From the NCBI GenBank assembly GCA_902625365.1, contig CACOAX010000001.1, forward strand, positions 40,310 to 104,309: DNA of 64,000 nucleotides. Reading direction: 5' to 3'. This DNA comes from an uncultured Alphaproteobacteria bacterium (lineage in GTDB: Bacteria; Pseudomonadota; Alphaproteobacteria; HIMB59; GCA-002718135). A model generated the notes under the pieces. That model made no database searches. It had not been told where the DNA came from and saw nothing but the letters and a program-made list of their open reading frames with translations. Shown here piece by piece: positions 882 through 41,085 of the stretch. The position numbers and the translations under genes were made by a program. Position 1 is the first letter of the stretch; the number at the start of each line of letters is the position of its first letter.

Positions 882-2228
882 TTATCTTACTATTAAATCA
901 TCTCCAAGTTTTGAAGATAATTCATTTTCAAGATCATTTACTGCATCAGCAGCAGATTTAGAACCAGTCCACACAGACTCTAAACCAGCCCACATAGCTT
1001 CTGAAAATACTCCATATTGTAGATGATTAGGTTGGGCGTTGGCTGATCCTAAAAGTACTTCAGTTGCTTCTGCAGCCCATTGGTCATTTGCATAAAGTCC
1101 AACATTAGATTGTTGTTTAGAAATTCCTAGGTGTGCAGACTCAATAGCATGTAAAGAATTGATTCGAGGTTCAGAAGCAATCTTTACAAGTTGAGATGCG
1201 ATATCTTGTAGATCTTCATCATTCTGGTTTGTTACAAGATAAACTAAAGGATGCGTAATAGTATTTGCTCTTCCTCTATCATTTCCTGCTGGGATAAGAG
1301 TAAATTGAATTGTTCCAAAGAAATCATCATTTCCTTCTTTTCCAGTGTATCTAGCATAGTGCCATGTTCCACCATGCCAAAAAGCAGCTTTACCATTTGC
1401 AACTTCATTATACCATTGTCCCCAATCAGTACCGATATGATTTTTCTTTGTTACTCCTGCAGCGACTGCATCCGCAAAGAATTGATAAAATTCTTGCATT
1501 GAAGCTTTATCTAACAATAGTTTACCTGATGCAGAGTCCATTAACTCACCACCAAATGATTGATAGAATTGAGCATAATCAGGACCATTAGACACTCTAG
1601 GGTAAAAACCATAACCCTCTTCTACTAATCCCATTGATACGGCTTTCTTTGCATCTTCAAGAACATTTGCTAGAGTGTATTCACCAGAAGCAACTTTGGA
1701 AGGTAATGCATCAATATCACTATCTGAGTAACCAATGCCTTTTAGGCATTCCCTCCAAAAGAAGAAAGGTCTGCTCTCTGCATCTTGTGGAACACCATAT
1801 TGTATGCCGTTGTAAGCTGCAATTTCCATTAAATTGCTATAAATATCATTCAATGGCCAAGCATCCATATCAAGATAATCTTCCACCGGAACAATGTAAC
1901 CTGCTTGACTCCATGGCGCTATATCAAGGTGACTTGTAACAACTATATTAGGAGCTGATCCATCTTCAGCTGCTAGGGTAACAGCTTGTTTAAACTCTCC
2001 CCAACCACCGAAGTCTCTTTTGCCCTCTACAGTAATGTTAATTTCTTCTCCTTGAATTGCCATTTCACGAGTAAGAATATCAGCAGCCATTTTGATTGCT
2101 TCCATCCTGTAATAATCAGCTTCGTTTGTACCACCAGCCCATACTGTGATTTTTACATCTTTAGCAGTTGCATATCCAAAACTTAAAACAGTTATAAGGA
2201 ATGCAATTACTAGACTTTTTATTTTCAT
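882..2228 (-). CDS. Extracellular solute-binding protein family 1 (carbohydrate/phospho-polyol ABC transporter)
   Basis: Signal peptide MKIKSLVIAFLITVLSFGYATA; family-1 SBP features (KITVWAGG, SAPNIVVTSHLDIAPW, GKAAFWHGGTW); directly upstream of the permease in the same orientation. Confidence 0.85.
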   Translation of the reverse strand: MKIKSLVIAFLITVLSFGYATAKDVKITVWAGGTNEADYYRMEAIKMAADILTREMAIQGEEINITVEGKRDFGGWGEFKQAVTLAAEDGSAPNIVVTSHLDIAPWSQAGYIVPVEDYLDMDAWPLNDIYSNLMEIAAYNGIQYGVPQDAESRPFFFWRECLKGIGYSDSDIDALPSKVASGEYTLANVLEDAKKAVSMGLVEEGYGFYPRVSNGPDYAQFYQSFGGELMDSASGKLLLDKASMQEFYQFFADAVAAGVTKKNHIGTDWGQWYNEVANGKAAFWHGGTWHYARYTGKEGNDDFFGTIQFTLIPAGNDRGRANTITHPLVYLVTNQNDEDLQDIASQLVKIASEPRINSLHAIESAHLGISKQQSNVGLYANDQWAAEATEVLLGSANAQPNHLQYGVFSEAMWAGLESVWTGSKSAADAVNDLENELSSKLGDDLIVR

Positions 2229-2417: not shown

Positions 2418-3215
2418 ATGAAAATATTACATTTATCGGATCCACACATTGAACCAGATATTTTACATGGTATTGATTCTCAAAAAAGATTTCATCAAGC
2501 ACTAACACATATTAAAAAAAATCATTTTGATACAGATTTATTTGTTATTTCTGGTGATATTACTCATTTTGGAAGTAGTGAAGCTTATAAAGTATTTAAA
2601 GATATATTAAACCAAGCCGAGTTACCAAAAAATTTGTTACCACATATAATAATTGGAAATCATGATGATAGAGAAAATTTTAGAAATAATTTTTCTGATA
2701 TTAAAACTGACAACAATGGCTTTATTCAATATTCAAAATCTTTTGATAAAAAAACTTTTCTTTTTCTAGATACTAATCAACCGAATACTGACAGCGGTCA
2801 TTACAATAAAGTTAGACAAGACTGGTTAATAAGTGAATTAGAAAAAAATAGTAAAAATGAAGTTTATATTTTTATGCACCATAACCCTCTTGCATTAGGT
2901 GATGAAAAAAGTGATAAAATAGGGCTAATTCAAAAAAATGATTTTCAGGATATATTATTAAAATTTAGAGAAATAATAAAACATATATTTTTTGGCCATC
3001 AACATATTACCACATCTGGTCAATATTTAGGCATTACATTTTCTTCACCACGTAGCACTTGGTCACCATTAGTTCCAAACTTTTCAAGTAAATATAGATT
3101 GGGAACTGCAAACACTGATCCTAATTATAATGTAATTTTAATTAAAGATAATTCTTTAGTTGTACATAGCGAAGATTTTTTAAAAACAGAGGTTAATTGG
3201 TTCGAGACTGAATAA
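2418..3215 (+). CDS. Calcineurin-like metallophosphoesterase (CpdA/GpdQ class)
   Basis: Metallophosphoesterase motifs: LHLSDPHIE, VISGDITHFG, IIGNHDD, IFMHHNP, FFGHQHI. Confidence 0.85.
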   Translation: MKILHLSDPHIEPDILHGIDSQKRFHQALTHIKKNHFDTDLFVISGDITHFGSSEAYKVFKDILNQAELPKNLLPHIIIGNHDDRENFRNNFSDIKTDNNGFIQYSKSFDKKTFLFLDTNQPNTDSGHYNKVRQDWLISELEKNSKNEVYIFMHHNPLALGDEKSDKIGLIQKNDFQDILLKFREIIKHIFFGHQHITTSGQYLGITFSSPRSTWSPLVPNFSSKYRLGTANTDPNYNVILIKDNSLVVHSEDFLKTEVNWFETE

Positions 3216-3217
3216 TG

Positions 3218-4324
3218 CTATTTTTTCTCAATTATAAAAATTTCATTATTAAAATAAAGGCCTTTATTTTTTGAAACTATTTTTTGAACTACTTTTTCAT
3301 AATTTCTTGTTTTTTCTACCCTCATTACTTTATCATCATCCATTTGATTGACATATATGGAAGCATTCCAAGCAGAAAAAACTAATGATGTTGCTATACC
3401 TCCGCTGATTTCTGTTGGTAGAGCTCTCAGTTTACATTTAATAATTCTTTTTTCTCCAAAAGATAAACTGCTTAATAAATCTTTATCTAAATTTTTCTTA
3501 AGATAAGAAATGATACTATTTCCAAGAGAAGGAAATGGGTCCTCTTTTGGCCAAATTTTACGAATTATTTCATTAGCAGGATCTTTTCCTGAAGCATGAA
3601 TAGTTAATAATTTCCCTTTTGATTTTAACGCTCTAATCATTGGTTCGATGACGTATTTTGATTTCTTTTCTGCTGAAATTCTTGAACGATAAGGCTGCGA
3701 AGCAATAATAAGATCAAATTTATTATCTGATTTTTTTTTGGTAGGTATTAATTCATTAACATTAAATTCTTGATCTTCACGGTAGATAACCATGACTGAA
3801 GGCTCTTTATAAGTATGGTTACCTGACTTTTTATTAATTTCTATATTCCATTTTTTTTCTAAAAATTCATTTTGTTTTCTTAATTGTTGGGCAAATTCAA
3901 GAGAAGTGTCGCCTTTTAATTTAATAATATTCCAATTAATTTTTTTCTGTTTAACTTCATTTTTTGATTTAAGGTTTGCTGCTTCCGCATAGTGAAGATT
4001 TGAAATGACAAAAACAGTATTCTTATGCTCAACAAACCTATCAGGTAATTTTTCTAAACCTAATCTTACATCTTCAATACTTATTTCTTTTGTGCAAACT
4101 AATAGAGGTACGTTAGGCCTAGCCTCGTGGCACTGACGCATAACATTCATAAGTAAAGAACCATCCCCCATACCAGCATCAAATATTTTTATGCCAGGTT
4201 TTTGAGGTTTTATTTTATTTACGTGAGGGCGAATAGCATCGGCAATTTGATTTTTTTCATTTGTTGTTGTTACAAATAATAAGTATTTTTGTCTGTTATC
4301 ATAAAACCTGAAATTTTTTTTCAT
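3218..4324 (-). CDS. Class I SAM-dependent methyltransferase-like protein, unknown substrate
   Basis: Motif I-like DAGMGDGSLL, later FDLIIASQPY and KGKLLTIHASGKDPANEI; last gene of the putative phosphonate operon. Confidence 0.55.
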   Translation of the reverse strand: MKKNFRFYDNRQKYLLFVTTTNEKNQIADAIRPHVNKIKPQKPGIKIFDAGMGDGSLLMNVMRQCHEARPNVPLLVCTKEISIEDVRLGLEKLPDRFVEHKNTVFVISNLHYAEAANLKSKNEVKQKKINWNIIKLKGDTSLEFAQQLRKQNEFLEKKWNIEINKKSGNHTYKEPSVMVIYREDQEFNVNELIPTKKKSDNKFDLIIASQPYRSRISAEKKSKYVIEPMIRALKSKGKLLTIHASGKDPANEIIRKIWPKEDPFPSLGNSIISYLKKNLDKDLLSSLSFGEKRIIKCKLRALPTEISGGIATSLVFSAWNASIYVNQMDDDKVMRVEKTRNYEKVVQKIVSKNKGLYFNNEIFIIEKK

Positions 4325-4326
4325 TA

Positions 4327-5439
4327 CTAATAAAGTCCCATTGATTTAGCAGAAGATATAAAGGCTTCTTTATTGCCAATAAAGTTTTTACCTCGCTCCC
4401 CTAAAAAAGCATCATCTACTATATTATTCCATTCTTGAACAGGAACTTTTATTTCATTTAAGTTAAGAGGAACCTCTAAAGAACGCATAAATTCACTCAG
4501 ATGATCTGCAGCATTCTCAAGATTATCATTAAAAATTAATTTTAATCTCTCCTCAGCTACACTATCAATTCCAACCATACTCAATGTAATCATAGGTAAT
4601 GTAAATGAGCAAGCAATACCATGCTGAATGCCGTAATTGAGCGTCACAGGGTATGATAGATTGTGCGCAATAGCAGTTTTTGTGTTGGAAAACGCTAAGC
4701 CAGCATGAACACACGCCAATGCAATTTTTGAGCGTAATTCAATGTTTCTTAAATCTTTAGTGAGAAGTGGTAAATTTTCTAATATTAATTTTGACGCTTG
4801 TATTGCATGAGAAGCAGAAACTGGGTTTGCATTAATATTCCATATACTTTCCATTGAATGAGAGAGAGCATCTAAACCAGTTGAAATGGTCAAGCCTAAA
4901 GGCTTATCAATCATAATAGATGGATCGATAATTGCTTTTTCTGCATAAAGAGATTTATGTGCCAAAGATAATTTATTATTTTTTTCTTTATCCCATATTG
5001 TGGCCCAACACGTAAGCTCACTTGATGTTCCTGAAGTTGTAGGGATTGCAATAATTTTGATTGGATTTTCGACTCTTGGACTTTTCTTATTGCGAACAAA
5101 ATCTGTTAGATATTCTTGTTTATCTTTAAATGCAGCAATTGCTTTAGCTGTATCTGTAACAGAGCCGCCACCTATAGCTAAAATATAATCTACCGTTTCA
5201 CTAATTGAAGAAAATTTAATTTGTAGCTCTAAAATATCCTTGTAATCTGGATTAGGCTGGACATCAGTCATAATGGATAGAGGTGGATTTGAAGAGAATT
5301 TAAATTCATCACTATATTTTTTAAAAATTTCTTCTGGATGAGTGATTATAATGTAGTTCTTATTTTTAATAGTATGATGTACTTCCTTAAATCTATATTC
5401 TCCAAATAAAATTTCCACGGGATTAAAATAATTCCACAT
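4327..5439 (-). CDS. Iron-containing alcohol dehydrogenase, phosphonoacetaldehyde reductase (PhpC)-like
   Basis: Fe-ADH motifs NPVEILFG, AIGGGSVTDTAKAIA, PTTSGTSSE, GLDALSHSMES, KTAIAHNLSYPVTLNYGIQHG. The TCWATIWD segment resembles phosphonoacetaldehyde reductases, from memory. Confidence 0.75.
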   Translation of the reverse strand: MWNYFNPVEILFGEYRFKEVHHTIKNKNYIIITHPEEIFKKYSDEFKFSSNPPLSIMTDVQPNPDYKDILELQIKFSSISETVDYILAIGGGSVTDTAKAIAAFKDKQEYLTDFVRNKKSPRVENPIKIIAIPTTSGTSSELTCWATIWDKEKNNKLSLAHKSLYAEKAIIDPSIMIDKPLGLTISTGLDALSHSMESIWNINANPVSASHAIQASKLILENLPLLTKDLRNIELRSKIALACVHAGLAFSNTKTAIAHNLSYPVTLNYGIQHGIACSFTLPMITLSMVGIDSVAEERLKLIFNDNLENAADHLSEFMRSLEVPLNLNEIKVPVQEWNNIVDDAFLGERGKNFIGNKEAFISSAKSMGLY

Positions 5440-5503
5440 TACCTTAAATTGATTTTGTTCTTAGTAAATAAAGATTAGTTGTTGTAAGGAGCATTTATTT
5501 TTT

Positions 5504-6946
5504 TTACCAAGGTAGCGAAAAAGTTTTTACATTAGTAAAGCTTTTCATTGCTTCAATTACACCCTCTTTATAACCAAGACCTGAATCTTTAATTCCACCA
5601 AAAGGAGACATTTCTATTCTATAGCCTGGAACCTCCCATATATTTACAGTTCCAACACTTAAACCTTGAATATATTTTTTCGCTCGCATGAAATTGTTTG
5701 TACATACACCAGAAGATAATCCGAATGCTGTAGAGTTAGATATTGTCATTACAGCTTCATCATCATTTGGAACACGAATGATTGGAATTACTGGACCAAA
5801 TGTTTCTTCTAAAACTAATTCACTTTTAGGATCAACATTATCTACTACTATTGGAGGTAACAAAGCACCTTTTCTTCCAGGGTGATATAAAATTTTTGCG
5901 CCGTCTCCTTCAGCCATAGAAACTCTTTTGTCAAAAAGTTCAGCAGCTTCGGCATTAACAACGGTACCTAAATCTGTCTCCATATTCATAGGATCACCAA
6001 ATTTAATTTTCTTAGCACGCTCAAGAGCCATTTCGACAAATTGATCTGCAATGGATTCTTGTACTAATATTCTTTTTACAGCTGTACAACGTTGGCCGGA
6101 GTTTTTTGTTGCTCCAGTAACGGCTAGCTCAACTGCTTTTTTAAGATCATCACTGTCTAAGTCATTTAATACAATTAAAGGATCATTACCACCAAGCTCT
6201 AGTACTGTTCTTTTGTATCCAGCTTGTTCAGCAATTAATTTTCCTACACCCACACTGCCTGTAAAAGTAATTAGATCAATGTTTGAATTTTTGATCATTT
6301 CTAATCCGATATCTTGAGGCCATCCAGTTACAACTGAAAACATTTCTGGTGGTAAGCCAGCTTCATATAATACATCAGCAAGTACCATTGCTGTTAAAGG
6401 TGTTAATTCTGTCTGCTTACATACTGTGCAATTATTAGTTGCAATTGAAGGCGCAATTTTATGCGCTACCATATTCAAAGGGTGATTAAATGGAGTAATT
6501 GCTGAAATTGCTGTTAATGGTTCTCTTATGGTAAATATTTTTCTCGCTTTTCCATGTGGAGTTAAATCACAAGAAAATATTTCTCCATCATCAAGAATAC
6601 AAAGTTGTGCAGTCAATGAAAATACATCAAAAGCTCTTCCTACTTCATATAAAGAATCTTGTTTTGAGATACCAAGCTCTAATGTAATAATATCAGAAAT
6701 TTCGTCTTTTCTTTTAACAAGTACCTCTGCAGCAGTTTGAAGAATTTTTTGTCTCTCATATCTTGTAAGTTTAGGTTGGTAATTTGCAGCAATATCTAGA
6801 GCCTTTCTTGCATGCTCTGCGGTACCGGCTGGAACCGTTCCGATTACCTCACCTGTAAAAGGGTACTCTACATTTATTGTTTTATCCGAAGTAACTTTTT
6901 CTCCAGCAATACGCATTGCTTCATTAATCATTTTTTTGTGCATCAT
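5504..6946 (-). CDS. phnY: NAD(P)-dependent aldehyde dehydrogenase, probable phosphonoacetaldehyde dehydrogenase
   Basis: ALDH motifs [53 protein letters not shown]; stop/start overlap with the adjacent phosphonoacetate hydrolase gene. Confidence 0.75.
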
Positions 6947-8184
6947 AGGGCCCCTTTAATTGCATAGTAAAATGCATCATAGTTATATAATTGTTTGCTA
7001 GTATCTAAATTTTGTAATTTTAAGTTTGATATGAATGGCACTTCTCTTTCATGAAGTCCACCATGTGAACGTAAAGGTTCATTTAATCCTGAGAGATTGT
7101 GTTTATTTTCAGATGAACCAATAGTCATAAATTCTGAAGACATACATATTATGTCCCCCATTCTATCAAGAGGTAAGTTATAGGCAGAGCATCCTTCATC
7201 TTTTGTTAAAACAACTTCTATATCTTTTATTTCTTTGATAGCATTTATAACAGTATCTAACTTACTTTTGTCTTTTAAATAAATTGTTGCAAAAGAACCA
7301 AGTGAACCATGATGCACGACATATGGATCTGTAATTGGTAGAATAACTTTAGCCATATTTGGTTCAAATTTTTTATCTAAATAATCTTGTAAAAATATTG
7401 CGTTAGGTGAACCATCTTCTTTTGATTTTGGTTTCATACCATGATCTGCTGTGATGATTATAGAAACATTCTCTTTATTTAAAAGACCAACGTATTTATC
7501 AAACATAGCATAAAATTTATTCGCTGTTTCATTTCCTGGTGCGTATTTGTGTTGGATATAATCAGTTGTAGATAAATACATTATATTTGGTTTGAACTCT
7601 TCAAGAAGTTTTACACCTGCAGCCATTACAAATTCAGAAAGTCCTTCAGAATATACTTCTGGGACTGGCACACCTAACCAATCGTTTACGTTATCTATAC
7701 CATTGAGATCTTTTGTTGCTTGATCAGATTTTTCAGCAGAAAAACATATTGCCCTCTGATCATTAAAACTTAATCCATTTCCTAAAAGTGTTCTTAACTT
7801 GTCTTTTGCAGTAACAAGAGCAATTTTAGAACCGTAATTGTAAAACTTTTCAAAAATAGTTGGTGCTCGCATGTATTTGGGGTCATTCATCATTACTTCT
7901 TCACCAGTCTCGGGTGTATAAAAAAAGTTTCCGCATATACCGTGAACAGAACTTGGTTGGCCAGTTACGATGGAAATGTTATTTGGATTTGTAAAACTTG
8001 GAATAGCACTGTGAACTAGTAGGTTTTCACCATGAGCAATTAATTTATCAAGATTTGGTGTAAGATTAGATTTAGATGCTTCTTCAAGATACTCTTTTTG
8101 ACTACCATCAAGGCAAATCACAATGGCAGTTTTTGAGAAGGTACTTGGATATTCTCTTTTATTAATTTCTAGATTATCGGACAC
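6943..8184 (-). CDS. phnA: Phosphonoacetate hydrolase (alkaline phosphatase superfamily)
   Basis: AlkP-superfamily metal sites: [26 protein letters not shown] nucleophile region, [35 protein letters not shown]; pattern typical of PhnA. Confidence 0.75.
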
Positions 8185-8467: not shown

Positions 8468-9310
8468 ATGTCAGTAAATTTTATTTTTATCTTAATTCTT
8501 GTTTCAGCTCTATGTCATGCAGTTTGGAGTGCTATAATAAAATCAAGTAAGAACCCTTTATCGTTAATGGGTATAACATCTGTCTTAGAAGTTACTATTT
8601 TCTTACCTTTAACATTTACTGTGCCATTTCCAACATTAGAAGTTTGGTATTTTTTAATTGCAACCGTCATCATTCATGTCATTTATAGATTAAATGTAAT
8701 TTATTCTTATAGATACGGGGATCTCTCTTACATATATCCAATTTCTAGAGGAAGTTCGTGTTTGTTTGTAGCAATCATAAGTATTTTATTTTTAAGTTCT
8801 GATATTAGTGTTGCTGGTTTTGTTGGAATATTAAATGTTTGTATTGGATTATTTTTAATATCTTATACTAAAAATTTATCTTTTAACTTCAGAGGTTTTG
8901 CTCTTGCGATTTCAACAGCTATTCTAATTACTGCTTACACTTTAGTAGACGGGGTTGGGGTTAGACTTTCTGAAAATGGTTTTTCTTATATTTACTGGCT
9001 CTTTACACTTAATGGAATACCATTACTAATTATTGGTTTGATCTCGAAAGATGGTTTACGAAAAAGAGCAACGTACACTTTAAGATCAGGAATTGCTGCT
9101 GGTGTATTTGCAACAAGTAGTTACGCAATTGTTGTTTGGAGTATGCAATTTATAGAAATTGCTTATGTCTCTAGTATTAGAGAAATAAGCATTGTCTTTG
9201 CTGCAATTATTGGAATGGTTTTCTTATTTGAGAAGAATGCAAAATCTCGAATAATACCTTCTATTTTAATAGTGAGTGGTATTTCGGTTGTTTATTTTCA
9301 AATTCTTTAA
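8468..9310 (+). CDS. EamA/DMT-superfamily membrane protein, possibly the phosphonate-utilization-associated type
   Basis: Ten-TM pattern; LVSALCHAVWSAIIKSSKNPL and YRYGDLSYIYPISRGS; divergent from phnA. Confidence 0.75.
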   Translation: MSVNFIFILILVSALCHAVWSAIIKSSKNPLSLMGITSVLEVTIFLPLTFTVPFPTLEVWYFLIATVIIHVIYRLNVIYSYRYGDLSYIYPISRGSSCLFVAIISILFLSSDISVAGFVGILNVCIGLFLISYTKNLSFNFRGFALAISTAILITAYTLVDGVGVRLSENGFSYIYWLFTLNGIPLLIIGLISKDGLRKRATYTLRSGIAAGVFATSSYAIVVWSMQFIEIAYVSSIREISIVFAAIIGMVFLFEKNAKSRIIPSILIVSGISVVYFQIL

Positions 9311-39163: not shown

Positions 39164-41085
39164 GTGAAAAAATAATAATTACATTTCCAGATGGAAATAA
39201 AAAGGAAGTTGATAAAGGCATCAGTGGTCTTGAATTGGCATCACAAATTTCTAAATCTCTTGCCAAAGAATCAGTCGCTATAAAAATTAATAATGAGATA
39301 AAAGATATTAGTTTACCTATTAACGGTGATGCATCTGTATCAATTTTAAAAAGAGATAGCGAGGAAGCACTTGAATTAATACGACATGATTGTGCTCATG
39401 TAATGGCAGAAGCCGTCCAAGAATTATTCCCTGGAACTCAAGTTACAATTGGTCCAGCAATTGAAAATGGTTTCTATTATGATTTTGCAAGAGATGAACC
39501 TTTTACTATTGCTGATCTTCCAAAAATTGAAAAGAAGATGCATGATATCATTCAAAGAAACAAAAATTTTATAAGAGAAGTATGGTCTAAAGAAGAATCG
39601 ATAAAATATTTTAAAGACAAAGGTGAAGACTATAAAGTTGAATTAATTAATGATCTGCCTGATAATGAGGAAATCAGTATTTACAAACAAGGTGATTGGT
39701 TAGACTTGTGCAGAGGTCCTCATATGGTTTCAACAAAACAAATTGGTAAAGGATTTAAATTAATGAAAGTTGCTGGTGCTTACTGGCGAGGTGACTCATC
39801 TAATGCAATGCTAACAAGAATTTATGGAACAGCCTGGGCAACAGAAAAGGGTCTTGAGCAACACCTTTTACAAATTGAAGAAGCAGAAAAAAGAGATCAC
39901 CGAAAACTAGGAAGAGAAATGGATTTATTTCATTTTCAGGAAGAGGCCCCTGGAGCGGTTTTTTGGCATCCTAAAGGTTGGACATTATTCCAGTCACTAA
40001 TAAATTATATGCGAAACAGACAAGACAAAGCAGGTTACGTAGAAACTAATACGCCAGACATGATGGATAAGTCTCTATGGGAAACATCTGGTCACTGGGA
40101 TAAATTTAGTGACATGATGTTTAGGACTGAAGCTAAAGACGATAAAATTTATGCTATCAAACCAATGAATTGCCCTGGTGCTGTAGAAATTTTTAAACAA
40201 GGATTAAAAAGTTATAGAGACTTACCATTTCTATTATCTGAATTTGGAAAAGTTCATCGTTATGAACCATCAGGTGCTCTTCATGGATTAATGAGGGTGA
40301 GAGCATTTACACAAGATGATGCACATATATTTTGTACAGAAGATCAAATTACACAAGAGAGTAAAACGGTATGTGATTTGATACTTAGTATCTATAAGGA
40401 CTTTGGTTTTGATAATGTTAGAATTAAATTTTCAGATCGTCCTGAAAAACGCGTAGGCGATGATGACATTTGGGATAAGGCTGAAGCTGCATTAATGCAA
40501 GCCATGGAAGCGACGGGTCTTGAGTACTCACTCAACCCAGGAGAAGGTGCATTTTACGGTCCAAAATTAGAGTTTGTTTTACGTGATGCAATTGGCAGAG
40601 ACTGGCAATGCGGAACATTACAGGTAGATTTAAATTTACCTGGAAGATTAGGAGCTACTTATATTGGTGAAGATGGTAATAAAAAAATACCAGTCATGTT
40701 GCATAGAGCTCTATTTGGTTCCTTGGAGAGATTCACTGGCATTCTAATTGAACATTATGCAGGTCATCTTCCTTTTTGGCTTTCTCCACTGCAAGCGGTA
40801 GTTGCTACAATTACATCTGATACTGATGAGTATGCATATGAAGTACAAAAAGAATTGGTTTCAAAAGGAATCAGGGCAGAAATAGATACACGTAATGAAA
40901 AAATTGGTTATAAAATACGAGAACACAGTAATAGTAAAGTGCCAGCAATTATAGCTGTTGGAAAAAAAGAAGCTCAAGATAAAACAGTATCTGTTAGAAG
41001 AATAGGATCTTCTGAAACAAATACCTTTAAATTAGAAGATATTGTTACTAGCTTATCTAAAGAAGCAAAATCACCAGTAGAATAA
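39160..41085 (+). CDS. thrS: Threonyl-tRNA synthetase
   Basis: TGS domain, [61 protein letters not shown]. Confidence 0.97.

Follow-up and report, generated by a model that had tools for sequence, protein, structure and literature searches.

An iron-containing alcohol dehydrogenase beside phnY and phnA as a candidate entry enzyme for 2-hydroxyethylphosphonate in marine Alphaproteobacteria

Which phosphonates feed a locus where the genes for PhnY and PhnA are followed by one for an iron-containing alcohol dehydrogenase (Fe-ADH)? Phosphonoacetaldehyde is the compound that PhnY oxidises, and phosphonoacetate the one that PhnA hydrolyses, so the question concerns the source of the aldehyde. It is raised by a 64,000 nt stretch of DNA (the window; positions 40310–104309 of contig CACOAX010000001.1, here C1) from an uncultured marine alphaproteobacterium of the HIMB59/AEGEAN-169 type, whose genome assembly has 1.03 Mb and is 55% complete. 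The window contains four intact, co-directional open reading frames on the minus strand, coding for PhnA, PhnY, the Fe-ADH and a methyltransferase-like protein (Table 1), with exactly the coordinates given in an earlier note on this DNA; the note had read them as an operon for 2-hydroxyethylphosphonate (HEP) that does without the aminotransferase PhnW. From comparative sequence analysis we propose, with a probability of roughly 60%, that the Fe-ADH oxidises HEP or a close relative of it to phosphonoacetaldehyde, which would be a second entry beside PhnW in this organism and likely the sole entry in two other lineages.

A search for phnW over the whole source genome retrieved a full-length gene on the same contig (C1:34812–35870, plus strand), about 4.4 kb to the left of the first base of the window. 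With 459 bits, its product exceeds the cut-off of 400.8, and it also passes PRK13479 (511.6 vs. 296 bits) and TIGR03301. The reported lack of PhnW thus holds for the 64 kb window but not for the genome, and we discarded it. Since PhnW, PhnY and PhnA are all encoded, each above its curated cut-off, the classical PhnWAY pathway is complete in the source genome, and 2-aminoethylphosphonate (AEP) is very probably a substrate because phnW lies in the neighbourhood of the other two genes. An operon that relies on alcohol entry instead of PhnW is therefore not borne out; the note had itself named a phnW elsewhere, with evidence for AEP as the substrate, as grounds against its claim, which in the strict form largely fails, PhnW being found and the use of AEP being deduced from the genes. 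The combination of Fe-ADH, an aldehyde dehydrogenase and PhnA without PhnW does not occur in the source genome, but it does in the sister family f2 and in f99, a separate alphaproteobacterial family. Hence, the central deduction of the earlier note is wrong for the source genome, while the biochemical idea behind it is plausible and better supported by these two lineages.

Profile searches confirmed the names given to PhnA, PhnY and the Fe-ADH. PhnA scored 460.6 bits against TIGR02335 (curated cut-off 407.55) and PhnY 790.5 bits against TIGR03250 (curated cut-off 635.65), and both matched over their full length the solved Sinorhizobium-type enzymes (536.7 bits with 3szy and 822.5 bits with 4i3t, respectively); PhnA additionally keeps the PSFTNPNN, TTDYxQHKYAPG, TADHGM and RSHGG segments of 3szy. 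The overlap described between the start of phnY and the stop of phnA is real and spans 4 bp. The four-gene cluster is kept in dozens of relatives and the substitutions in its genes fall mainly at third codon positions; therefore, these are not chance open reading frames.

The Fe-ADH is a type III enzyme that matches PF00465 and ADH_Fe_C above their cut-offs and retains a complete Asp-His-His-His metal site (D190, H194, H259 and H273). Its proposed resemblance to phosphonoacetaldehyde reductase was upheld in part: TIGR03405, the phosphonate-associated Fe-ADH family, is the best family, but the score of 354.5 bits lies below the cut-off of 423.7, and no genome of the source order scores above it. 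We found no paper accounting for the name PsrA that NCBI applies to TIGR03405. The predicted model of the protein (pLDDT 91) has its best fold match in the PDB with the sulfoacetaldehyde reductase 6jko (Foldseek TM 0.89/0.87), which is the nearest solved structure both by sequence and by fold. Within the Fe-ADH clade, K156 and R349 are invariant and positions 254 and 351 are always occupied by K or R. Identification of the enzyme as PbfF was rejected because PbfF belongs to PF02826. Within the genus, the Fe-ADHs (loci L065, L066, L070, L072, L076, and L128) are 58 to 96% identical to the window copy, whereas PhnY remains at least 87% identical; this drop in Fe-ADH identity suggests that the gene was repeatedly replaced within the genus.

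We compared about 100 loci around the PhnA-PhnY core; the named relatives are single-cell genomes labelled as uncultured Alphaproteobacteria or as Pelagibacteraceae/Pelagibacterales. The core occurs in four arrangements. Six contiguous loci (L135–L139 and L211, the last from a 96%-complete genome) have PhnW only, and here the methyltransferase gene comes immediately after phnY. PhnW and Fe-ADH occur together in the window and in most of its genus, and Fe-ADH alone in f2 (14 of 24 genomes; loci L124, L125, L133, L134, L145, and L147). Lastly, genomes G037, which is complete, and G044 have only a flavin adenine dinucleotide (FAD) oxidoreductase of TIGR03364, with neither Fe-ADH nor PhnW.

None of these 14 genomes of f2 contains a PhnW above the cut-off, the best match reaching 105 bits. 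Weak matches to class V aminotransferases (around 100 bits) were rejected as PhnW, being far below the cut-off and occurring also in f2 genomes that lack PhnA. In f2, an orthologous Fe-ADH is found in all genomes that have PhnA but no FAD enzyme (14/14) and in none of those lacking PhnA (0/8); the exact probability of 3e-6 overstates the evidence, since these genomes share ancestry. The possibility that the FAD enzyme supplies the aldehyde unnoticed in f2 was dismissed, because TIGR03364 is above its cut-off only in G037 and G044, both without Fe-ADH. No entry enzyme was detected among the genes flanking the f2 cluster, a result for the locus only, as PbfA-type lyases were not searched genome-wide. 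As a separate observation, at loci L126 (12305–13429, plus strand) and L127 such an oxidoreductase replaces PhnW and Fe-ADH beside PhnA-PhnY, together with PhnS2-type AEP transporter genes; it is probably a PbfC/PbfD-like entry enzyme.

Phosphoenolpyruvate (PEP) mutase was found in 0/61 relatives, a set that includes the source genome with its 55% completeness; this removes a PhpC-type biosynthetic role in the source order, and a part for the Fe-ADH in phosphonate synthesis was rejected. PhnJ was not found in the source genome, at the same completeness, and is present in six of the 61 relatives. The Fe-ADH could alternatively reduce the phosphonoacetaldehyde made by PhnW to HEP, as a means of removing a reactive aldehyde or of making HEP from AEP. 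Such a direction agrees with its family resemblance to phosphonoacetaldehyde reductases and with the presence in the source genome of PhnW, which can supply the aldehyde, and it has been suggested for phpC in AEP operons (PMC9381506). Nevertheless, we consider it quite unlikely: the Fe-ADH would then compete with PhnY within an operon ending in phosphate, and f2 and f99, in which PhnW is missing, maintain the Fe-ADH together with an aldehyde dehydrogenase and PhnA. In f2, PEP mutase and the FAD entry enzyme are missing as well, leaving no visible source of aldehyde for a reduction.

In f99, the Fe-ADH operon was found in five genomes, two of them essentially complete single contigs, with the order PhnD-C-E-E-PhoU-Pit-(LysR)-PhnA-ALDH-FeADH-EamA (ALDH, aldehyde dehydrogenase). 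Genome G432 is a single contig of 1.24 Mb, in which the operon adjoins genes for a PhoR-like kinase and Pst-like genes and includes a phn-type LysR regulator, and the membrane protein after the Fe-ADH is of the phn_DUF6 type; genome G481, complete in one contig, carries the operon too. The PhnW model, which matched 77 genomes in the class sample described below, found no match in any of the 100 genomes of f99 and a neighbour family, nor in the controls of that same search. A class III aminotransferase near the f99 operon was rejected as a PbfA candidate, being an acetylornithine transaminase. The aldehyde dehydrogenase of f99 is not PhnY, to which it is 28% identical (256 vs. 636 bits for TIGR03250). 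In L169 (10210–11652, minus strand) and L207–L210, a BADH-like aldehyde dehydrogenase stands where PhnY would be expected, with PhnA on one side and Fe-ADH on the other; it is a candidate non-orthologous phosphonoacetaldehyde dehydrogenase.

The association extends to the class. Among 385 evenly sampled Alphaproteobacteria, the Fe-ADH (counted at E ≤ 1e-80) is present in 12 genomes and PhnA in 44, with an overlap of 10 genomes (p = 8e-9), which supports the idea of HEP oxidation. Genome G435 shows the order PhnA-PhnY-PhnE..PhnD-FeADH, with PhnW at a distance of 11 kb and an Fe-ADH that passes the TIGR03405 cut-off. That the locus simply degrades AEP through PhnW, PhnY and PhnA, with the Fe-ADH as an unimportant passenger, would suit the presence of all three enzymes and the six relatives whose locus lacks the Fe-ADH; we regard it as very improbable, since selection on the Fe-ADH is purifying, its gene tracks PhnA exactly in f2, and the two occur together in the class as indicated.

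The following scheme would account for these arrangements. The four genes form one arm of a larger island for phosphonate use, the other arm of which, starting 4.4 kb to the left of the window, encodes PhnW, a homologue of HD-domain phosphonate oxygenases and a Pit-type phosphate transporter. The common exit is through PhnY and PhnA, which convert phosphonoacetaldehyde to phosphonoacetate and this to acetate and phosphate, and PhnW feeds it from AEP. In parallel, the Fe-ADH would most likely produce phosphonoacetaldehyde by the NAD(P)-dependent oxidation of HEP or of a close hydroxyalkylphosphonate, a reaction that PhnY and the irreversible step of PhnA would pull forward; in the PhnW-less f2 and f99, it is the sole entry candidate seen at the locus. 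The substrate, direction and cofactor of the enzyme are what we infer here, because it is the only entry candidate at PhnW-less loci, PEP mutase is absent from the 61 relatives, the basic residues are conserved, and the nearest structure acts on the sulfonate analogue. Additionally, because the PhnA route yields acetate, the Fe-ADH is not required for handling acetaldehyde, a task that it might have in PhnX clusters.

Several points weigh against this scheme. Fe-ADHs often act as reductases, and so does the characterised phosphonate homologue PhpC, which reduces phosphonoacetaldehyde (PMC9381506). The score of the Fe-ADH stays below the TIGR03405 cut-off, and genomes within one genus are non-independent data. 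In the larger genomes G146, G115, G338, G415, G241, and G061, the Fe-ADH is not adjacent to PhnA. Finally, many of the Fe-ADHs in the genus and f2 are accompanied by a MetE-like protein and by a Ugp-type importer with its binding protein, and the natural substrate may therefore be a compound related to HEP but larger or methylated.

This last point leads to the alternative that the Fe-ADH oxidises some other phosphonate alcohol, or an alcohol freed from an imported phosphonate ester (glycerol, methylated or sugar-linked), after Ugp-type import and MetE-like processing. In the genus and f2, the importer, binding protein and MetE-like protein always occur with the Fe-ADH and never at PhnW-only loci, and the MetE-like gene is always accompanied by both the Ugp-type importer and the Fe-ADH. 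However, the window, L052, L065, L072, L076, G020, and G035 have the Fe-ADH without those importer and MetE-like genes, f99 pairs it with a PhnCDE importer and lacks the MetE-like gene there, and an alcohol unrelated to phosphonoacetaldehyde would leave the missing entry enzyme unexplained; on balance, we find this alternative doubtful. The MetE-like gene (core methionine synthase; L132:10836–11915, minus strand) does not occur in the window.

Table 1. Genes of the cluster and its immediate surroundings in the window.
Feature	Position	Strand	Remarks
Solute-binding protein, Ugp/sugar-type ABC importer	882–2228	-	SBP_bac_1; between cluster and phnW
SpdA-like calcineurin-like phosphodiesterase	2418–3215	+	Convergent; Metallophos 59.1 bits; NF050112 170 bits, below cut-off 400
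Methyltransferase-like gene	3218–4324	-	Class I S-adenosylmethionine (SAM)-dependent fold; predicted model
Iron-containing (type III) alcohol dehydrogenase, phosphonate-associated kind; proposed 2-hydroxyethylphosphonate dehydrogenase	4327–5439	-	TIGR03405 best family
phnY, phosphonoacetaldehyde dehydrogenase	5504–6946	-	TIGR03250; 4i3t match
phnA, phosphonoacetate hydrolase	6943–8184	-	GTG start; first gene of minus-strand run; TIGR02335
EamA-type membrane protein, phn_DUF6-related	8468–9310	+	Divergent from phnA; TIGR03340 143 bits, below cut-off 288

The remaining genes of the neighbourhood (Table 1) differ in how firmly they belong to the locus. The methyltransferase-like gene matched no family above cut-off in the family profile searches. 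Its label nonetheless agrees with the class I SAM methyltransferase fold of the predicted model (mean pLDDT 77), whose best match, histamine N-methyltransferase (TM 0.54/0.68), informs on the fold class only and not on the substrate. In the genus, the gene comes after phnY even in loci without Fe-ADH, tying it to the PhnA/PhnY core and not to the Fe-ADH; a distant homologue occurs in f2, nearby but set apart. The SpdA-like phosphodiesterase, a possible phosphonate-ester hydrolase, is retained by most relatives, where it separates the Fe-ADH side from the PhnW side, and the EamA gene also comes after the Fe-ADH in the PhnW-less operon of f99.

The interval between phnW and the cluster holds a cupin-like gene, a glycerophosphodiesterase, a Ugp/sugar-type ATP-binding cassette (ABC) importer and the SpdA-like phosphodiesterase, and the whole island, including the genes beyond PhnW, is conserved in the genus except for variable cargo, with PhnW beside PhnA/PhnY in the relatives. 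The cargo slot lies between the phosphodiesterase and the cupin gene (L123:11225–15823 and window positions 882–2228); here it holds the glycerophosphodiesterase and the importer, and in relatives a different Ugp-type importer, or nothing. The set of glycerophosphodiesterase, ATPase, permeases and binding protein (L123:11225–17228) recurs among relatives only in L009, L029, L062, and L076, and is probably variable cargo outside the core. Beyond PhnW are the HD-domain oxygenase homologue (Phn-HD), a dual-specificity phosphatase-like gene and the Pit-type transporter. The homologue, of the PhnZ/TmpB kind (L123:8827–9402, minus strand), adjoins phnW, is accompanied by the phosphatase-like gene and scores 202 bits against TIGR03276, below the cut-off of 214.6; it may provide a second route of carbon-phosphorus (C-P) cleavage.

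Marine dissolved organic matter is rich in esters of HEP, which bacteria use (PMC5649143; PMC9381506). If our proposal is true, a HEP dehydrogenase feeding PhnY and PhnA would let abundant, streamlined bacteria gain phosphorus and acetate from HEP without C-P lyase. We see about even odds for the broader statement of a hydrolytic, ethylene-free HEP pathway in streamlined marine Alphaproteobacteria, with the Fe-ADH as a dedicated HEP dehydrogenase. This enzyme would be the sole entry in the two lineages without PhnW, of which one has an aldehyde dehydrogenase other than PhnY, and would have been combined with PhnW in the genus of the window. A HEP dehydrogenase would also help to account for a partial pathway in AEGEAN169, in which one clade has the full AEP pathway and 30% of another only phnY and phnA (PMC11366302): the Fe-ADH-only loci of f2 may be this partial case, and the FAD-enzyme loci another. 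The PhnW-less operons of f2 and f99 make the question of HEP entry directly testable. No paper on a catabolic HEP dehydrogenase was found in the open-licence literature; for PbfF, oxidation of HEP has been raised, but as a less likely role (PMC12366243, 2025).

Compared with the classical PhnWAY pathway, the source genome has all three enzymes within about 14 kb, but PhnW is on a separate, convergent arm and the PhnA-PhnY run extends into the Fe-ADH and methyltransferase-like genes. The ancillary Pbf enzymes (PbfA, PbfC/D, and PbfF; PMC8154272; PMC10590968; PMC12366243) likewise broaden the substrate range through an extra enzyme beside PhnY/PhnA, although none of them is an Fe-ADH, PbfF being a PF02826 racemase. 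With TIGR03405 and PhpC the Fe-ADH shares its best family match and a phosphonate gene neighbourhood, whereas it scores below the family cut-off, would operate in the direction opposite to PhpC, and belongs to a genome that, as its relatives, lacks a PEP mutase. PhpC has been noted in AEP-degradation operons, where PhnW and PhpC were proposed to make HEP from AEP (PMC9381506), a proposal that cannot explain the PhnW-less loci. The reductase 6jko acts on the sulfonate analogue of phosphonoacetaldehyde/HEP, but is only about 26% identical, uses a sulfonate instead of a phosphonate, and works physiologically as a reductase. Lastly, bacteria with C-P lyase are known to draw phosphorus from HEP (PMC5649143), by a radical route that releases ethylene, whereas the route proposed here would yield acetate and no ethylene.

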